Source: an uncultured Bacteroides sp. (lineage in GTDB: Bacteria; Bacteroidota; Bacteroidia; Bacteroidales; Bacteroidaceae). Taken from it: 33,735 bases of DNA. The position numbers and the translations under genes were made by a program. Below the pieces are notes generated by a model. That model saw only the letters and a program-made list of their open reading frames with translations, had not been told where the DNA came from and did not search any database. The stretch is from contig CAMFND010000064.1 of NCBI GenBank assembly GCA_945965395.1, positions 1 through 33,735 on the forward strand, written 5' to 3'. Below are positions 6,340 to 14,178 of this stretch, piece by piece. Each line of letters starts with the position of its first letter. The stretch's first letter is position 1.

Positions 6340-6615
6340 TCAACAGTTCATTTTTTGGGGACCACTGCAGAGATAAGCAGCCGGCCCCAGCACTTCTTTA
6401 ACAATCATATCGTTATCTGCATTAACATTATTTGTGCCTTTGGCATTATAAACTAGCTTCTCACCTTTCAAGAAGTTCCGCTTGACAGGAACTCCTTTAA
6501 GATAAATTCTCCATTCTTTCTCTCCTGCTTTTTGCAACACATACTCAACGTTAGCAACTACTTCATGTTCGTTATCAGAACGTAAAGTTCCACCATTTAT
6601 TATTACATCCATCAT
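6340..6615 (-). CDS. Small protein of unknown function, 91 aa
   Basis: Read on the minus strand, with ATG at 6615 (a second ATG follows directly at 6612) and TGA at 6340-6342. I do not recognise a family. The protein is soluble-looking, has no signal peptide or membrane segment, and alternates short hydrophobic and charged stretches (VVANVEYVLQKAG, EWRIYLKGVPVKRNF, LKGEKLVYNAKG), suggesting a small mostly-beta fold. It ends in GPQKMNC. It lies 139 nt downstream of the C11 protease stop on the same strand, beyond a 12-bp palindrome, and ends at a strong bidirectional hairpin. It may belong to the same cluster as the protease or be independent. The opposite-strand frame at 6247-6456 has no family resemblance, and the hairpin spacing favours this strand. 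Confidence 0.6.
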   Translation of the reverse strand: MMDVIINGGTLRSDNEHEVVANVEYVLQKAGEKEWRIYLKGVPVKRNFLKGEKLVYNAKGTNNVNADNDMIVKEVLGPAAYLCSGPQKMNC

Positions 6616-6683
6616 TAAAAATTTTAAATTTCTCCTACTCTATATCAAAGGCTTTTCGGAATCTGCCTGTATAATTTACCTCT

Positions 6684-6695
6684 TGTAAGCTTACA
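6684..6695. repeat. 12-bp palindrome TGTAAGCTTACA
   Basis: A perfect 12-bp palindrome in the 139-nt gap between the C11 protease stop and the start of the 91-aa gene. It has no loop and no T-run, so it looks more like a dimeric protein binding site than a terminator. No partner is identified. Confidence 0.35.
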
Positions 6696-6754
6696 GCCAT
6701 AAAATTATGCAAAAACACTACACTTAATAATATGTATTTTCTCAATCCGGCAAA

Positions 6755-8611
6755 TCATTTTCTGAAATCAGTGAAACGGGTATAATGTCTACGCCCGTAG
6801 AGATCGACCAGACAATAACCATAACGGTATGTGCCTGAGGGTACAGAAAGCAAATTCACTTTCAGGTCTTTCTTTTTTTGGGCTACAACAGAGTCAACAG
6901 GCTGGTAACAGACGGAAGAGTTATTATCGGACTGAAACTCCGGACACAGATAGACGATACGATCGTTCTTGCAGATAGGGGTAATTCCTTTGTCGGGGGT
7001 TTGGTCATTGAGATGCCGACGGGCACCTGCCACTACCCCACCGGGATTCTTCTCGTCGTAACGGAGAATCAGGTCGGAACGCTCGCCATTAAACAAGACG
7101 GGAACGGTATAATTCAACGAACGGCTGTCGGAAAAGGTCATGTAAGCAGCTACGGTTTTTCCTCCGATATGAATCCATTTCCGGTTCCACTGCCCCAAGG
7201 AATCTGACGTATTTTCTATCTGCCCGTGGGGGGTCAAGGTTATCCCGTCGCCGTCCATACCATAGGAAAGCCATCTTCCATCGGATGTCTGTGACAGCAG
7301 AACAGCATAAATCTTACGGGTGTGCAGAATCATATCGGTAGAAAGAGCGTCGGGCAGTACCTTGTCGGGGAAGGTGGAAGAAGAGGCACTGGCATAGCCG
7401 GCCTGCCACTGGCGGACGTACTCCCGCACGAAACTGAAATAATCGGGTGAAAATCCGCAATGATAGTATTCTTCCAACGAACGGGCCTGACTGAGGTTAT
7501 AGCAGGGGAAATAGAGAGAAAGCCCGCACACGGCATCGTGACTGAACGAACCGGAGGTGCCGGAACAGACCACGGCTTCGCGCAGCCGGGTGCGTATGTC
7601 ACAAAGAAGGCTACTATCGGAAGGTTCTGCCATCCGGTTACAAAGGTCGAGCAAATCGGTCATATCAGGGCCACAGAAGGTAAACGCCGGCATGCCGAAC
7701 GACTTGCTTTGTGACCGGGCTTTGGAGAAGCGAGGAAAGGCGGCCGGAACAAGGGCAGCACGCTGACTGGAGAAGAATTGTCCGACACTGGCTGTCAATG
7801 CCGGAACAGCATCGAGCTGGGTAACGGAAAGAGTGACTTCTTCGTTGCCACCATAAGCATTAATGTAAGAGCAGACCATCTTTTTATAGAGGTCGGGAAC
7901 CGCAGAAGGGGTATAGGATGCCAAAAGAGGTATGACACTACGGTAATCCCACCCACCACCTGGCTCCAGCTCTTGCGAGGCTATCAGGTAGTCGGCATAA
8001 GGCGAAAGAGCGGTTGCGGTTTCAAGGGTAGCCATGAGGCAGGCATCGAAGCCTATAAAAGCAAATTTCTTGTTATCGGGAAGACGGGAGGATTCAAGCC
8101 CCTCACAGATTTCACGCAAGGACAGGGAACGGTCGTCGGGATAACATTCGTCGTAACCGAATCCACCGACGGATCCGGAACCGTGATTCCAGAATATCAG
8201 ACCGTAATAGGCTGCCGGAAAAGCGCTTTGTCCGATACGGAGAAACTGACTCAGGGTAGAGGGATGGCCCATGCTGCCTGCTGCAAAGGTGTGCCACTTC
8301 TGAATACTTTGACGGGTAACGGCGACACAGGTAAGGCTGTCGGACGAAATGGACAAACCGAGGCTGTCTCTAGTATGCCACTGACGGGTTCCTCCTAACA
8401 ACATGACTATAGTCAGATTGTCAATATTTATGGAATCTTTCATCGCGGAAAGAATTTCACGAATGTCAGAAGTGGCCAGTTTGTGGGTAGTTTCCAAATT
8501 AGACCCGTTCATGTAAACGAACAGGGTAAAACTGGATGAGGGAGCACCATTCAGTTCCTGACTAAATAGTAAAGTAAAAAGGCTGAACAGGAGGTTACAA
8601 ATCTTCTTCAT
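6755..8611 (-). CDS. Clostripain-family (C11) cysteine protease, exported
   Basis: This is a peptidase C11 protein, related to clostripain and Bacteroides fragipain, which cleave after arginine or lysine. The catalytic pair is visible: His in FWNHGSGSVGG (about residue 143) and Cys in GFDACLMAT (about 191), with the typical ECYPDD segment between. The frame is open upstream to 8716, but the ATG at 8611 (or the adjacent 8614) starts a good signal peptide, MKKICNLLFSLFTLLFSQ, while the longer version has a hydrophilic front. There is no lipobox cysteine, so a free periplasmic or secreted enzyme is expected. From this start it is 618 aa, with about 400 residues beyond the catalytic core, ending in a beta-rich module. 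Its start overlaps the stop of the 1063-aa gene by 17 nt, implying translational coupling. The substrate is unknown. Confidence 0.88.
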   Translation of the reverse strand: MKKICNLLFSLFTLLFSQELNGAPSSSFTLFVYMNGSNLETTHKLATSDIREILSAMKDSINIDNLTIVMLLGGTRQWHTRDSLGLSISSDSLTCVAVTRQSIQKWHTFAAGSMGHPSTLSQFLRIGQSAFPAAYYGLIFWNHGSGSVGGFGYDECYPDDRSLSLREICEGLESSRLPDNKKFAFIGFDACLMATLETATALSPYADYLIASQELEPGGGWDYRSVIPLLASYTPSAVPDLYKKMVCSYINAYGGNEEVTLSVTQLDAVPALTASVGQFFSSQRAALVPAAFPRFSKARSQSKSFGMPAFTFCGPDMTDLLDLCNRMAEPSDSSLLCDIRTRLREAVVCSGTSGSFSHDAVCGLSLYFPCYNLSQARSLEEYYHCGFSPDYFSFVREYVRQWQAGYASASSSTFPDKVLPDALSTDMILHTRKIYAVLLSQTSDGRWLSYGMDGDGITLTPHGQIENTSDSLGQWNRKWIHIGGKTVAAYMTFSDSRSLNYTVPVLFNGERSDLILRYDEKNPGGVVAGARRHLNDQTPDKGITPICKNDRIVYLCPEFQSDNNSSVCYQPVDSVVAQKKKDLKVNLLSVPSGTYRYGYCLVDLYGRRHYTRFTDFRK

Positions 8612-11600
8612 CATCGGTCGTATCATTGTTTTCTTGTTTATGGAATGTGTCACCCGGGTTACGGAATTCATAAAGAGCCAAAGCCAGAGTGCGGCGGATG
8701 TCTTCTGCAGTCTCACCTTGCTGGTCGCCCAAATTCTTTTGAATCAGTTCACTCATGGTGTCGGCATAGTATGTATTGGCATCTTTAGCGGAAATTTCAC
8801 TTTCGGCTGCACGGCTGCGACGGGCACGGCGACAGGTTTCAGTGTTTCGTTCCAGACGCTCGAACAGAGAAGCACGGGAAGCACTGAAAGCACGGGACTG
8901 ATTTTCCTGGGATAAGGAATGAACAACATCGATCAAGACATCCATCTGCTGCTCCATATCGTCAGAAATATCGGCACGGCTGGCTTGCTTTTCCTGACGC
9001 AGGGTCTGAATCAGGGTGGACAGTGAGGTTTCAAAACTATCGTCGAATGCATCTACATGCTGCTGCCGGAAAATTTCTTCTTCCCACCGGAGTGAAGTCA
9101 GGCGACAGGCATTTTCGCGGGCATTAGGGTCTTCTTCATTAAAAGCTTCGAAATAGGCATTGTTGGCATCGAGGAAGAATTCGTCCATGCGGTCGCGAAG
9201 CTGCTGTAGAGTGGCGTAATCTTTGCAAGTCTGACGCATATCGGCACACACAGCCCACAAGGAAGGATCGAGTTTCGCTTCATCACACTCAATAGCCCGT
9301 TTGCCTTGCTGAATATCTTTCAGTCCCTTGTCGGACTCACTGGTAGCCGACTGGCTGATGAAAGACTTAATGTTTTCAAGAAGATTATCGAGGTTAAGCT
9401 CCTTCTCTACCCTAACTTCTTTTCCTAACACGATAAGCACAAGCTTGCCCCAGATTTTACGAGTGGCTGCTGTTACTTCCGCTCCTAACTCAAACGACTT
9501 AATCCAAAGTAATCGGGTAACTGCCCCAATGACATGGGTCAGCGAATTGAGTACACCACCAACGACATCGCTTCCTAACTGGAGAGCTTTCTTAGCCAGT
9601 TCAAGGGTGCCGTATGCCACTCCAATGGCCACCTTCACACCTGCCTTAGCTATCTCAAGCCCAGCTATCTCGGCTGCACGAGCGGCTTTAATCCAAAATT
9701 TGTACCACTTGGTCCGACGGATAATCTGGCGGCATTCTTCTATCCGCCGGTTGAAATCGTCAATCTGTCTTTGCAGACTAACCACTTCACGCTGGGCTTC
9801 GTCAAGCTTGCGGGTAGCATCTTCAATACTGGACTTTACGCTCTGAGCTGCAGATTTCAAATGGTTCTGGGCTTTTTGAATAATTTCCAGAAAACCGCTG
9901 GTATCGAATACTATGCTAAGCTTAAATCCGGCAGAAGCAAAATCTTTCACCCCTCCCTGCAGGTTCAGTACGGTTTTGAACCCCCAATAGATGTATTCGA
10001 TATTCACAAATACCATCCGGTCTCTGACAAGGACCAAAGTGTCAAGCTGAAAGACGGACAGGATGGAAATATGGGCACTCAGGTAGAAGGTCAGTTCGGC
10101 TTTTTCACGCTGGACATTCAGATACATGACAGGGCCGTTGCCGGAGGACTGGACTAACTGTCCGGCCAGACCTCCGGCAACCGGCTCCATGGGAAGGGGC
10201 TTTTGGGACTTTTCGAGAATAAAGAAACTGCCCAGAACTATCCTGTCCATTTGGACAAGAGACACAAGAGACTTACCCTTATCGGCCAGAAAAAGGAAAC
10301 GGACTTTCTTGTCAAACAGTTCAAGGGTACCGCAAATAAAGAATCCTGCCGGAAGTTGGCTATTACCCACTGTCAAAGGTTCTGCGCAAATATATAGCTG
10401 GCAGTTAAGAGAAATTTTTCCGTTACAGTCTATACGGTAATGACGCATGGTGTCTTTATCGGTGAGTATGTACTGGCCGGTGTTGTTACCTAACGGAGTA
10501 AGCTGGGCTTCTCCAGTGATGTGCAAGGTAGAATCTATCTGATGATTGAAATCGGCTACAACTTCCTGCAGCTGTTTCTGTCGGACTGTATCATAGTCTG
10601 CCAGAGAGATGTCTGACGGTATGGATTTTACTCCTCCTCCAGCCAAACGAGTTTCTGTAAGATCAAAATCGCCCACAGCTATCACATCCAGACACTCAAG
10701 AGCATCCCACTGAATGTCGACAACCTCAACAATCAAATCACGCAAAGATATACGACCGGTATCGGAAGTCAAAGCGGCCGTAAGTAAGGTAATTTTAGGG
10801 GGATAAGGACCAAAGGCAAAACCTCCGAACAAGGATAAACGGGGGGTATTGATACGTCCAATCATACCTAATGTCAATCCGGAAGGAGTGACACCGATAT
10901 TGAGCCCAAGGTCGGAAAAAGAGAGACGGGTATTAAGAGATATACGGGCATCGGATGAAGCAGAAAGCGCAAAAGAGGTGTTGGAGGCTGAACCGCTCAT
11001 CGTAAAAGAAAGAAGCTGCCCGTCAAGCTTAAAAATAAAGGTACCGGAAACGGCACAAAAGAAATCGGTGGCAGATTTCTGAATCTGAAAGTTCAATCCG
11101 TCAAAAATAAATCCTTCGGTTTCGATACGTCCGCTCGACAACTGTGCTCCGAAACTCTGGCCGGACAAACTGCCGCCAACTATAAACTGCACGGTCTGAA
11201 GTCCGGTAAGTTGCCGAATGCATTGTCCGAAGCAATTCAGACTGAGATCGAACTCTCCCAAGGCCAGAAGCTGATAGGTCGTACAAACTGGAGACAGTTT
11301 TATATTCTTGAAATCGGGGAAAAACTGCTGTAGCAAATGAAGATCCTGACCGGTTCCGTCATAGCGGACAAGCAGTGCCAGCTGGCTGATTCCTAACCAT
11401 CCGGCGACTTCCGCTACCGTCCGTTCGAATGTATTGCCACTTTTCAAGCGGTCTGTAGAAAGAAAAAAAAGAAGCTGACGGGAATCACCGGAAAGCGTAA
11501 TGCCGCAATTCAGGCCGGAAAAGGTGAGCGACAACGCACTATAACGGGACTGTCGGACAAATTCGACAGAAAAGTCGGATGAACTGCTCGGAATGACCGT

Positions 11601-11786
11601 CAGATGGCTGGCCAAGGAAGAAACTCCAACATCCTCACAGTTCATCAAGTCAGACAGCTGTCTGCCACGGGTACTCAAGAAGCCCATGACGGTAAGTTCT
11701 CCCTGCATACGGCCTATGCCAAAAGTGGCCGGAAATCCGAATAATTCACCTTCTGCCAGAAGAATAGAGTTTATGTGCTGTTTCAT
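8595..11786 (-). CDS. Large protein of unknown function: beta-rich half, coiled coil, Gly/Ala-rich helices
   Basis: A 1063-aa protein I cannot assign to a family. No signal peptide is visible, so it is probably made in the cytoplasm. Residues 1-630 are dominated by short alternating strands with repeated 'GLNxxI/FxL' style units (SLTFSGLNCGITLSG near 87; FDGLNFQIQKS near 228; LSFSDLGLNIGVTPSGL near 288). Residues about 635-693 form a charged heptad-like coiled coil. About 697-790 is alanine/glycine-rich and amphipathic to hydrophobic (EIAKAGVKVAIGVAYG; VVGGVLNSLTHVIGAV). The rest is helical with an acidic tail (DDEEDL). It starts 42 nt after the LytTR gene and its end overlaps the C11 protease gene. 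Large beta-rich families such as DUF6603 are worth comparing, but I see no decisive motif. Confidence 0.8.
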   Translation of the reverse strand: MKQHINSILLAEGELFGFPATFGIGRMQGELTVMGFLSTRGRQLSDLMNCEDVGVSSLASHLTVIPSSSSDFSVEFVRQSRYSALSLTFSGLNCGITLSGDSRQLLFFLSTDRLKSGNTFERTVAEVAGWLGISQLALLVRYDGTGQDLHLLQQFFPDFKNIKLSPVCTTYQLLALGEFDLSLNCFGQCIRQLTGLQTVQFIVGGSLSGQSFGAQLSSGRIETEGFIFDGLNFQIQKSATDFFCAVSGTFIFKLDGQLLSFTMSGSASNTSFALSASSDARISLNTRLSFSDLGLNIGVTPSGLTLGMIGRINTPRLSLFGGFAFGPYPPKITLLTAALTSDTGRISLRDLIVEVVDIQWDALECLDVIAVGDFDLTETRLAGGGVKSIPSDISLADYDTVRQKQLQEVVADFNHQIDSTLHITGEAQLTPLGNNTGQYILTDKDTMRHYRIDCNGKISLNCQLYICAEPLTVGNSQLPAGFFICGTLELFDKKVRFLFLADKGKSLVSLVQMDRIVLGSFFILEKSQKPLPMEPVAGGLAGQLVQSSGNGPVMYLNVQREKAELTFYLSAHISILSVFQLDTLVLVRDRMVFVNIEYIYWGFKTVLNLQGGVKDFASAGFKLSIVFDTSGFLEIIQKAQNHLKSAAQSVKSSIEDATRKLDEAQREVVSLQRQIDDFNRRIEECRQIIRRTKWYKFWIKAARAAEIAGLEIAKAGVKVAIGVAYGTLELAKKALQLGSDVVGGVLNSLTHVIGAVTRLLWIKSFELGAEVTAATRKIWGKLVLIVLGKEVRVEKELNLDNLLENIKSFISQSATSESDKGLKDIQQGKRAIECDEAKLDPSLWAVCADMRQTCKDYATLQQLRDRMDEFFLDANNAYFEAFNEEDPNARENACRLTSLRWEEEIFRQQHVDAFDDSFETSLSTLIQTLRQEKQASRADISDDMEQQMDVLIDVVHSLSQENQSRAFSASRASLFERLERNTETCRRARRSRAAESEISAKDANTYYADTMSELIQKNLGDQQGETAEDIRRTLALALYEFRNPGDTFHKQENNDTTDDEEDL

Positions 11787-11828
11787 AATCTTTCATCAAT
11801 TAAATTCTTTGAAATTATAAAATCAGAT

Positions 11829-12308
11829 TCAAATATCTTTTTCTGTAAACCCCTGATTGTCACGGACTCCTAAGAATATAAAACGTTCGAATACTTTTTT
11901 CCTATATTCATCGCTTATCTTAAGCACTTGATTGCCGATAAGAAAAGAACGCCCGCTCAATCCTTTTACATGACGGATATTAATTAAATAAGATCGATGG
12001 ATGCGTATGAACGTATCTCCTGGCAAACGCTCTTCAATGCGAGCTAAAGGATAAGACAAAGTAAATTTTCGGTTACAGGTGGCATAAAGGTGACAATAAC
12101 TGCTACTGGCCTTAATCCACATAATCTCATCCAGTGTCAAATGTACGTAACCGTTTTGATACCAAACCAATGTATCTTGTTTTACATGAGAGTTTAAATT
12201 ACTCCTTATAGGCAATTCTTCCAAGTCAGCCCCTCTGACCACACGAACAGGGCAATCTTTCATTTCTGAGGGAAGAATAATCACAATTTCCGAGTTAAGC
12301 TGTTTCAT
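11829..12308 (-). CDS. Stand-alone LytTR-domain transcription regulator
   Basis: A 159-aa DNA-binding protein. Residues about 46-145 form a LytTR domain: DEIMWIKASSSYCHLY (60-75), FIRIHRSYLIN (100-110) and LKISDEYRKKV (129-139) are the conserved strand and recognition segments. The first 45 residues are not a receiver domain and contain no phospho-acceptor aspartate pattern, so it is not a classical two-component regulator. LytTR proteins bind paired sites with a GTT core. It is preceded by an 11-bp inverted repeat only 6 nt upstream and followed after 42 nt by the 1063-aa gene, so it probably controls itself and that operon. What signal it senses cannot be seen. Confidence in the family is high; the regulon is inference. 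Confidence 0.9.
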   Translation of the reverse strand: MKQLNSEIVIILPSEMKDCPVRVVRGADLEELPIRSNLNSHVKQDTLVWYQNGYVHLTLDEIMWIKASSSYCHLYATCNRKFTLSYPLARIEERLPGDTFIRIHRSYLINIRHVKGLSGRSFLIGNQVLKISDEYRKKVFERFIFLGVRDNQGFTEKDI

Positions 12309-12313
12309 ATTTT

Positions 12314-12344
12314 ACATTTCGTTTTCACAAATCAAACGAAATGT
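12314..12344. promoter_or_regulatory. 11-bp inverted repeat in the leader of the LytTR gene
   Basis: Arms ACATTTCGTTT (12314-12324) and AAACGAAATGT (12334-12344) are perfect reverse complements around a 9-nt spacer, ending 6 nt before the LytTR start codon at 12308. Without a T-run towards the gene it is not a terminator. It could be an operator for the LytTR protein (its CGTT core suits that family) or an RNA hairpin blocking translation initiation. Confidence 0.55.
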
Positions 12345-12443
12345 TGTGTCTGTCAGCTCATTTGTTTTCTAAAGCCCATGAATTTTCTTCTAAAATCTTA
12401 TTTAACTTTCATAGATAAATTCGTTTTTCATCGAAGAAACAAA

Positions 12444-12483
12444 ACATCTCAGGCAAAAAACATTTATTTCCCGCCTGAGATGT
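12444..12483 (-). terminator. Terminator of the 182-aa gene
   Basis: Arms ACATCTCAGGC (12444-12454) and GCCTGAGATGT (12473-12483) match perfectly over 11 bp with an 18-nt loop. Read in the minus direction the stem is followed by TTTGTTTC. It sits 7 nt after the 182-aa gene stop and separates that gene from the LytTR operon, so the latter likely has its own promoter. Confidence 0.75.
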
Positions 12484-12489
12484 CACAAA

Positions 12490-13038
12490 TCATGCGTCCA
12501 GCTGTTGCAACATACGCGAAATATTACCAATGCCCATTTGTGCCAATACACTAGTCCTTTCAGTATTCCAAACGGCCACAAACAGACTATTTATCTCTAT
12601 CACTCCTAAACGAGGTAATGCATTGGAGACATCTACTGAAATGGCAAATGCATATTCGGTAAATCCATTATCAGAAACTGCCCCACTTCCACTTTGGGTT
12701 TCAGAAGCTTTTTCAGTACCTTCAGTCTGTTTTCCAGGCATCTCCTTATATAAAAAAGCTGCCTTCAACTGAAAATCAATCTCATCCCACTTGAAAGGAC
12801 TTTTCTCATTCTGCACATTCTCTAAGTTTCCCTTGATTTTGTCTTCTGCCCCTTCAATGCCAAAAGCATCTTTAAATTCATCCACCATTTCTCCCAGTTT
12901 CACTGTATTAGGTGAATTGACTGTGATAGGCATAACCAATAATGCGCTTTTCTGATCTGTCTTCTCATAAATAGCTGCAAGATTGGTCTTCAGCAAATCA
13001 AAATTGACTCCCAACACTAAATTCATGTTCTGTGTCAT
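12490..13038 (-). CDS. Protein of unknown function, 182 aa
   Basis: I do not recognise a family. The protein starts MTQNMNLVLGVNFDLLK, has no signal peptide, and is predicted soluble. Residues 1-60 contain ALLVMPITVNSPNTVKLGEM; 82-99 hold WDEIDFQLKAAFLYKE; 101-125 is a low-complexity Thr/Ser/Gly/Glu linker; 127-160 returns to beta-type strands (YAFAISVDVSN, GVIEINSLFVAVWN). The 'EIDFQLKAAF' and 'VIEINSLFVAVW' units recall in style the 'GLNFQI' strands of the 1063-aa protein two genes downstream, but I cannot show homology. It has its own promoter and terminator and is transcribed towards the LytTR gene. It ends with a short amphipathic helix (NISRMLQQLDA). Position and shared repeat-type operators suggest it belongs to the same system. 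Confidence 0.7.
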   Translation of the reverse strand: MTQNMNLVLGVNFDLLKTNLAAIYEKTDQKSALLVMPITVNSPNTVKLGEMVDEFKDAFGIEGAEDKIKGNLENVQNEKSPFKWDEIDFQLKAAFLYKEMPGKQTEGTEKASETQSGSGAVSDNGFTEYAFAISVDVSNALPRLGVIEINSLFVAVWNTERTSVLAQMGIGNISRMLQQLDA

Positions 13039-13093
13039 AATACTACTATTTTAAAATTAATAATGAAATAATGACTCCAATGGAATCTTTATC

Positions 13094-13121
13094 CGTTTAC
13101 GTGACGTTGTAAATGTAAACG
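13094..13121. promoter_or_regulatory. Inverted repeat CGTTTAC-N14-GTAAACG, candidate operator
   Basis: Two 7-bp arms (13094-13100 and 13115-13121) flank a spacer that contains another GTT core (ACGTTGT). TCCGTTTAC at the left arm fits the LytTR half-site pattern closely. The element lies just at or after the predicted transcription start of the 182-aa gene, a position where a bound protein would block transcription. Confidence 0.5.
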
Positions 13122-13127
13122 ATAAGA

Positions 13128-13156
13128 CAAAACTAAACTTCATTCATTTTTCCAAA
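13128..13156 (-). promoter_or_regulatory. Candidate promoter of the 182-aa gene
   Basis: On the minus strand TAGTTTTG (13128-13135) matches the Bacteroides -7 consensus TAnnTTTG exactly. A TTTG lies upstream at 13153-13156, but its 17-nt spacing is shorter than the usual 19-21. The start of transcription would fall near 13121, about 80 nt before the ATG. Confidence 0.5.
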
Positions 13157-13234
13157 CCACACTTATTTCCTCTGAAAACAAAAAATAAAAGATACACACA
13201 ACTTTCACTTTTCAGAATTAGCTTCTGACTGAAA

Positions 13235-13266
13235 TTTGTTTTCCTGCAAATTATTCATTTACTTTG
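13235..13266 (+). promoter_or_regulatory. Candidate promoter of the Rpn gene
   Basis: TTTG at 13235-13238, a 20-nt spacer, then TTACTTTG at 13259-13266 (seven of eight positions of the extended -7 pattern counting the free ones). Transcription would start near 13273, 24 nt before the ATG at 13297. Confidence 0.55.
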
Positions 13267-13296
13267 TAAAAGGAACAATAGAGGATAAATTGCCGT

Positions 13297-14178
13297 ATGG
13301 AAAATTATATTCGTTTTGACTGGGCTATGAAGCGTTTGCTGCGCAACAAAGCCAATTACGCGGTGCTGGAAGGACTGCTCACCACACTGTTAGAGGAAAA
13401 GGTGACCATCCACAAGCTGTTGGAAAGCGAAAGTAACCAGGAGGATGAGTTTGACAAGTACAACCGCGTGGACATGTTAGCGGAAAACTCGAAGGGGGAA
13501 TTGGTGCTCATCGAGGTGCAGAACAATAATGAGTATGCGTACTTCCAGCGCATGTTGTTCGGTGCGTCCAAATTAGTGACGGAATACATCAACCGGGGCG
13601 AAGGATACGAGAAAGTAAGGAAAGTGTATAGCGTGAACATCGTGTATTTCTCGTTAGGACATGGAAAGGATTTCGTGTATCACGGGAAAACGGAGTTCGT
13701 GGGTATCCATAACGGAGACATCCTGGAGTTGAGTCCGTTCCAGAAGCAGACATTCAAGGTGGACAAGGTAAGCCAGCTTTATCCTGAGTATTATATTCTG
13801 AAAGTGAACGACTTTAACCGGGTAGCTAAAACGCCGCTGGAGGAATGGATTTATTACCTGAACACGGGAAATGTGCCTGAAAATGCTACGGCACCAGGAC
13901 TGGATACCGTAAAAGAGCAACTAAAGTTGAACCGCATGAGTCGGGAAGAGTTGAAAGCATATTACAAGCATCTGGATAATATCGTGATTCTGCGGGACAA
14001 CATCATGACGGAACGTGCGGAAGGACGTGCGGAAGGACGTGCAGAGGGACTGGCGGAGGGGTGCGCAGAAGAAAAAGCAGCTATAGCACGCAACCTGAAA
14101 GTATTAGGCATGACGGCAGAACAGATTGCACAAGCTACCGGACTGACAAAGGAAGAGGTGGAGAAAATTCACTTTTAA
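13297..14178 (+). CDS. Rpn-family recombination-promoting nuclease / putative transposase (PD-(D/E)XK)
   Basis: A 293-aa member of the PDDEXK_2 / Rpn group, often annotated as transposase though it is not in an insertion sequence here. The opening (FDWAMKRLLRNKANYAVLEGLL) and the core YNRVDM (D59) followed by VLIEVQ (E73, Q75) show the intact D...E-x-Q active site. Residues about 239-254 carry an AEGR/AEGL tandem repeat, and the end (GMTAEQIAQATGLTKEEVEKI) is a small helix-turn-helix-like module common at the tail of these proteins. Rpn proteins in other bacteria have been linked to DNA cleavage, recombination and phage defence. It stands alone, divergent from the 182-aa gene, with its own promoter and terminator; no terminal inverted repeats are seen. 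Confidence 0.9.
   Translation: MENYIRFDWAMKRLLRNKANYAVLEGLLTTLLEEKVTIHKLLESESNQEDEFDKYNRVDMLAENSKGELVLIEVQNNNEYAYFQRMLFGASKLVTEYINRGEGYEKVRKVYSVNIVYFSLGHGKDFVYHGKTEFVGIHNGDILELSPFQKQTFKVDKVSQLYPEYYILKVNDFNRVAKTPLEEWIYYLNTGNVPENATAPGLDTVKEQLKLNRMSREELKAYYKHLDNIVILRDNIMTERAEGRAEGRAEGLAEGCAEEKAAIARNLKVLGMTAEQIAQATGLTKEEVEKIHF
14014..14061 (+). repeat. 12-bp tandem repeat within the Rpn gene (four units)
   Basis: CGTGCGGAAGGA at 14014-14025 is repeated exactly at 14026-14037, then with changes at 14038-14049 and 14050-14061. It encodes the R/L-A-E-G units. Because 12 is a multiple of 3, gain or loss of a unit would keep the frame, so length variation between strains is plausible. Confidence 0.85.

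Follow-up and report, generated by a model that had tools for sequence, protein, structure and literature searches.

The window, a 33,735-nucleotide stretch of an uncultured Bacteroides sp. genome (contig CAMFND010000064.1 of GenBank assembly GCA_945965395.1), carries a real, rare, and regulated pair of genes, encoding proteins of 182 and 1063 amino acids (aa), together with a LytTR regulator and an optional C11 protease. We read the locus as a LytTR-autoregulated module of two cytosolic proteins, joined in two species by an exported protease, that probably serves antagonism, and give this reading a probability of about 0.4. Regulation is the firmer part of it, while the role of the pair, antagonism included, is what we infer.

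The genes were traced across 61 genomes of the genus. The 1063-aa protein was present in three of them: the window's own genome (G000, 3.7 Mb and 94.3% complete, with the window as contig C64), Phocaeicola plebeius (G311), and, at 45%, G307, a genome only 82% complete. The 182-aa protein was found in the same three, and its homologues of 187 aa (P. plebeius) and 170 aa (G307) each stand beside the large gene on one strand. Genome contigs searched for close relatives of the 1063-aa protein returned a single locus, that of P. plebeius DSM 17135, at 84%. The window order is 182 aa, LytTR, 1063 aa, and C11, all on one strand. In P. plebeius, the small gene, a 1062-aa gene, and C11 share one strand and the LytTR gene is convergent behind C11, and on the 7.7-kb contig of G307 the 170-aa, 1057-aa, and LytTR genes share one strand, with a 349-aa gene running divergently to the small one. 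The gene orders in the three genomes thus show the 182/1063 pair to be constant and LytTR, linked to it in all three, to differ in its place. The pair is rare, and it is kept together in the same three related species.

The initial annotation had treated five genes, including one for a 91-aa protein, as one regulated effector system. A regulated unit is supported, with LytTR linked in three of three genomes and repeats upstream, and the order of the pair is kept; the five-gene unit is not supported, as C11 is found in two of the three genomes, LytTR has moved, and the 91-aa gene is in neither relative's locus.

Beyond the window's own copies, no full-length match was found for the 1063-aa protein in 301 genomes of the family or 395 of the phylum, or for either protein of the pair in 393 genomes of the order; these samples are thin, since neither G311 nor G307 was among their matches. 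The 1063-aa protein had no full-length match in the phages or plasmids searched, and neither protein had a relative in scans of viral contigs. Order-level matches at E up to 0.01 (three for the 1063-aa and four for the 182-aa protein besides their own) were short, scored weakly, and were put down to chance; for the 1063-aa protein they fell in its coiled coil.

Reading frames were intact in all copies read. Between the window and P. plebeius, identity is 84% for the 1063-aa protein, 78% for C11, 56% for the 182-aa protein, and 50% for LytTR. The corresponding dN/dS values are 0.12, 0.17, and 0.41 for the first three, with 0.03 for a neighbouring Rpn control, and that of LytTR was saturated and not computable; the 91-aa frame lacked a relative for comparison. 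The frames of the 1063-aa protein, C11, and the 182-aa protein evolve under purifying selection.

The regulator carries a LytTR domain (PF04397, E 1.7e-16). In the alignment of small-gene upstream regions and in 12 intergenic stretches read, a half-site like CGTTCGGAAAA recurs 20 bp on. A matrix was built on five such sites, located before the window 182-aa, P. plebeius small, G307 170-aa, G307 LytTR, and G041 LytTR genes, the last at a locus of DUF2589 genes. When each site was left out in turn, the omitted one came first in its locus for the window, P. plebeius, and G041, and each of the two G307 sites came second, behind the other. Three further high-scoring sites lay outside the matrix set, upstream of the LytTR gene in the window (12363), upstream of the G307 349-aa gene (L007:6155), and in the G041 LytTR/DUF2589 interval (L024:10905), and the best score elsewhere over 14 scanned loci was 16.4, within a frame of G302 (L028). 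Scored against a matrix made from the remaining four sites, 13146 ranked first of 67,406 positions. The top two window sites under this four-foreign-site matrix were 13146 and 12363, whose scores were reached by the best score in 1 and the second-best score in 2 of 300 shuffles, respectively; the 12363 site was again second-best with six foreign sites. For P. plebeius, the three-site matrix from G307 and G041 gave a site that 0 of 200 shuffles reached. The sites upstream of the 182-aa and LytTR genes are new here, and the direct repeats with their 20-bp period are predicted LytTR sites. Regulation by LytTR is fairly well supported.

The 182-aa gene's own terminator, as the initial annotation had called it, was recovered as a hairpin of 19 pairs, the strongest of eight terminator-like hairpins in the scanned stretch, although this count shows no excess over the 9.1 expected by chance. 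Hairpins behind the small gene reached z of -6.44, -5.22, and -3.61 in the window, P. plebeius, and G307, with 0, 0, and 1 of 200 shuffles as good, respectively. Their presence in three of three genomes would fit a higher level of the small than of the large protein.

The five minus-strand frames between 6340 and 13038 read in the order 182 aa, LytTR, 1063 aa, C11, and 91 aa (Table 1), and the frame listing agrees with the gap of 42 nt between LytTR and the 1063-aa gene (11787-11828) and the 17-nt overlap of the C11 and 1063-aa genes that had been noted before. That overlap is counted from the ATG of MKK and becomes 32 nt from the ATG of MIRPMMKK.

Table 1. Features of the window locus and the basis on which each was assigned.
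Feature	Position	Strand	Basis or remark
Direct-repeat site, two 11-bp half-sites, 20-bp period, upstream of 182-aa gene	13146..13178	-	Matrix scan
182-aa protein; module core	12490..13038	-	No family match; homologues adjoin the large gene in relatives
Terminator-like hairpin 3' of 182-aa gene	12443..12484	-	Fold scan; counterpart in both relatives
Second direct-repeat site, upstream of LytTR gene	12363..12395	-	Matrix scan; left out of matrix building
LytTR DNA-binding protein, 159 aa	11829..12308	-	Pfam; N-terminal stretch conserved; no receiver or membrane segment
1063-aa protein; module core	8595..11786	-	Weak coiled-coil matches at most
C11 (clostripain-family) protease, 623 aa from first ATG (or 618 aa from 8611)	6755..8626	-	Pfam
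DUF805b RNA motif directly upstream of 91-aa gene	6632..6669	-	37.4 bits, gathering score 35.6
91-aa protein; neighbour, judged outside module	6340..6615	-	No match in fetched loci of relatives
Junction where P. plebeius carries an extra 6.9 kb	13179..13237	.	Window 12745-13178 resembles L006:14-447; 13238-14071 resembles L006:7334-8167

The protease assignment of the initial annotation was borne out by Peptidase_C11 (Pfam, E 2.7e-37; Clostripain family, 129.6 bits) and by intact motifs FWNHGSG and GFDACLM, whose HG histidine and DAC cysteine we take to be the catalytic residues. The hydrophobic N-terminus, read by eye, is probably a signal peptide, and export is predicted. Solved C11 proteases gave a weak sequence match (best E 5.5e-11). 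Among the 61 genomes, 14 had C11 matches at E 1e-10; the full-length ones were the window's own and that of P. plebeius (78%), and the remaining 12 were partial at 25-38% identity. The coding overlap with the large gene is kept in P. plebeius.

For the pair itself, as for the 91-aa protein, Pfam gave no match over cut-off, and NCBIfam, PADLOC, and PHROGs gave only weak or chance-level matches, those of the 1063-aa protein mostly in its coiled coil. Profiles of the 1063-aa and 182-aa proteins matched no solved structure (best E 0.09 and 1.1, respectively). The 182-aa protein shows neither a signal peptide nor a membrane segment by inspection and hydropathy scan. No export signal was seen by inspection in the 1063-aa protein, which has 17 cysteines, an acidic tail, and, in a simple hydropathy scan, one borderline hydrophobic stretch at 569 and no clear membrane segment. 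Structure models had mean pLDDT of 38.1 (1063 aa) and 44.4 (182 aa); the low-confidence model of the former suggests strands in two segments (8-345 and 427-612), followed by a coiled coil (635-759) and then helices as far as the C-terminus.

Several likenesses were tried and rejected. The 182-aa protein is no recognizable relative of DUF2589 (hhalign probability 0.4% over 16 columns, no Pfam match) and no copy of a 1063-aa domain (best score below the shuffle mean, 26 of 40 shuffles as good). A search for internal repeats in the 1063-aa protein turned up nothing but trivial overlaps and a single weak pair (probability 10.9%), and for a possible likeness to large strand-rich DUF6603-type proteins there was no such Pfam match even at E 10. 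A basic patch near residue 989, kept where C11 is present and altered in G307, was considered as a C11 cut site and given no weight because the G307 protein is lysine-rich throughout.

Under the LytTR-regulated antagonism reading, the regulator would bind the 11-bp direct repeat, with its 20-bp period, ahead of the 182-aa gene; in the window and G307 it would also bind ahead of its own gene and so create positive feedback. The small protein would be in excess because of the hairpin 3' of its gene, and the large protein would be made at a lower level, through read-through in the relatives and, in the window, from the LytTR promoter. The C11 gene, overlapping the end of the large gene in two species, would add an exported product. 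The pair would be antagonism or effector cargo that is produced under certain conditions and released from the cell, and the protease may mature this pair or attack a target outside the cell.

Several results weigh against this reading. No toxin or adhesin was recognized in the 182-aa or 1063-aa protein, nor an export signal. No C11 orthologue was found in G307 (82% complete), leaving it in two of the three pair genomes, and the protease is thus not essential to the core. The LytTR proteins of the window and P. plebeius share only about 50% identity, compared with 84% for the large protein, and may therefore not be orthologues. Upstream of the LytTR gene in P. plebeius, the matrix scan found no repeat site. 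The matrix began from five sites chosen by eye. With the strictest matrix, of the three G307 and G041 sites, 13146 still ranked first but was equalled in 13 of 200 shuffles, and 12363 fell to third. Finally, the four-site matrix includes the P. plebeius site, which is related by descent to the upstream DNA of the window (72%).

The surroundings in P. plebeius raise another explanation, in which the pair belongs, as cargo or accessory, to a Bacteroidales contractile injection system that has lost its structural genes to decay. The extra block there, across which the window runs straight, holds a sheath relic, an ATPase, a DUF2589 protein, a sheath, and a 659-aa gene, with the AAA ATPase, DUF2589 protein, and sheath divergent to the small gene. 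This sheath resembles solved sheaths of extracellular injection systems (best E 4.1e-148) and shares 53.1% identity with one on a P. distasonis plasmid bearing two tube genes. Pieces of a second sheath lie between the small gene and the ATPase (L006:593-697 and 731-817), and a GDP-fucose synthase-like piece precedes DUF2589 (L006:2426-2554). We read the block as a probably decaying injection locus beside a retained module, and it is possible, from this one species only, that the two once belonged together. Side by side with the relic and the foreign gene piece, however, the 1063-aa gene has kept its low dN/dS, and the neighbourhood occurs in one of three species. The sheath family (PF17482) has one member in P. 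plebeius and none in G000 or G307 (82% complete); no tube (PF06841) exceeded the cut-off in any of the three, and baseplate genes were not searched for. The G000 tube scan gave one chance-level match (E 0.53), and the P. distasonis tubes do match PF06841. Neither the P. plebeius sheath nor a DUF2589 protein had a relative in viral-contig scans. The 659-aa protein (L006:5134-7113), which has several hydrophobic segments and a sub-threshold zinc-ribbon match, is not present at the window junction.

The injection explanation also draws on DUF2589 loci elsewhere. Contig C73 of the window genome holds a DUF2589 relic with a stop (L011:1578-2204); behind it lies a piece that shares 72% identity with a 170-aa G303 protein, the latter presumably M15-peptidase-like. 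DUF2589 occurred in 6 of the 61 genomes, and six stretches were fetched from four genomes besides P. plebeius and C73. One of them, in G041 (L024:10440-15372), encodes LytTR, DUF2589, 261-aa, DUF2589, 175-aa, and 111-aa proteins and a muramidase with a peptidoglycan-binding domain, has the same kind of LytTR and site as the window, and follows genes that we take to be of conjugative-element type; a LytTR match was missing from the other fetched stretches. On balance, we regard a role as injection-system cargo as unlikely. It would be a considerable leap to have one type of LytTR regulon span the 182/1063 module, the G307 349-aa gene, and the DUF2589 loci, with small abundant proteins of the 182/DUF2589 type and a large protein forming released particles or complexes matured by exported C11, as an undescribed effector class. 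In G302 (L028:104-805), an endonuclease/exonuclease/phosphatase-family protein beside DUF2589 gave a weak, below-cut-off match to cytolethal distending toxin subunit B. A group II intron end adjoins a G041 DUF2589 locus (L026:6203-6350), and a FopS small RNA was found in P. plebeius (L012:9665-9733).

An intracellular structural, storage, or stress complex under LytTR control, with C11 as an independent neighbour overlapping by chance, would suit a 182-aa protein lacking export signal and membrane segment, a 1063-aa protein lacking a clear one, the coiled coil and acidic helical end of the low-confidence model, and the missing C11 of G307. The occurrence of the pair in only 3 of 61 genomes implies that it has no housekeeping role, P. 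plebeius retains the coding overlap with C11, and we consider such a complex rather doubtful. Patchy distribution and a changeable neighbourhood would also be expected of a defence module against phages or plasmids, which is improbable given only weak coiled-coil matches in PADLOC (best E 0.0019). That these are passing accessory genes heading for loss in a rearranging region, as indels and gene relics alongside and the G+C of 182-aa and LytTR genes (0.39 and 0.38) unlike that of 1063-aa and C11 genes (0.48 and 0.50) might suggest, is hardly likely against intact frames, low dN/dS for the 1063-aa protein and C11, and conserved sites and hairpins.

The 91-aa gene was judged to lie outside the module because it is missing from the relatives' fetched loci and has its own DUF805b motif. 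Its protein matched only its own copy among the fetched loci, including those of P. plebeius and G307, and had no viral-contig relative. Two DUF805b matches at gathering score were found in about 272 kb (the window and 15 loci), one before the 91-aa gene and one before the G307 349-aa gene (L007:6233-6268). This 349-aa gene (L007:6278-7327) is divergent from the small gene and has its own repeat site, and no family or solved relative of its protein was found. Rpn-type nuclease/transposase genes lie at 13297-14178 of the window and L006:7393-8340, and differ in AEGR repeat number near the end (293 vs 315 aa).

If the antagonism reading is true, it puts a compact gene pair within reach of study in a cultured type strain, P. 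plebeius, together with a named regulator and two predicted binding sites. It would also add an undescribed LytTR type tied to DUF2589 loci, DUF2589 being hardly mentioned in the literature searched. A limited literature search found no described system with this gene set, as the initial annotation had supposed, and no account linking contractile injection with clostripain or with plebeius.

Compared with known systems, the window protease belongs like clostripain and fragipain to the C11 family with HG and DAC motifs, but at about 620 aa it has about 300 residues beyond the matched stretch, and its gene overlaps the 1063-aa gene. C11 proteases of gut Bacteroidales activate toxins, according to PMC8406203 and PMC9308784. 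With Bacteroidales injection systems (BIS; PMC7394362) and extracellular contractile injection systems, the P. plebeius locus shares a sheath, an AAA ATPase, and a sheath relic, whereas the 182-aa and 1063-aa proteins match no injection-system protein in the libraries searched. The LytTR of the G041 locus shares 34% identity with that of the window along its length, and sites of the same type precede both LytTR and DUF2589 there, but the locus has DUF2589 proteins and a muramidase instead of the pair. LytTR regulatory systems (LRS), such as HdrRM, BrsRM, and Bacteroides LRS-like operons, likewise combine a soluble LytTR with direct repeats before its own and target genes, as set out in PMC6193735. 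Unlike in these, the predicted targets here are proteins without a family match, and a simple hydropathy scan of the proteins encoded in 6340-13038 showed none like a membrane inhibitor. Most published LytTR sites consist of 9-bp repeats separated by 11-13 bp, whereas Bacteroides has 11-bp repeats separated by 11 bp, i.e., a period of 22; such sites act in autoregulation (PMC6193735). The half-sites of the window are unlike the Bacteroides ones given there, and their period of 20 agrees with 9-bp repeats separated by 11 bp. As in LRS, the window locus has a LytTR domain and, judged by sequence alone, direct repeats of this period before the regulator's own gene.

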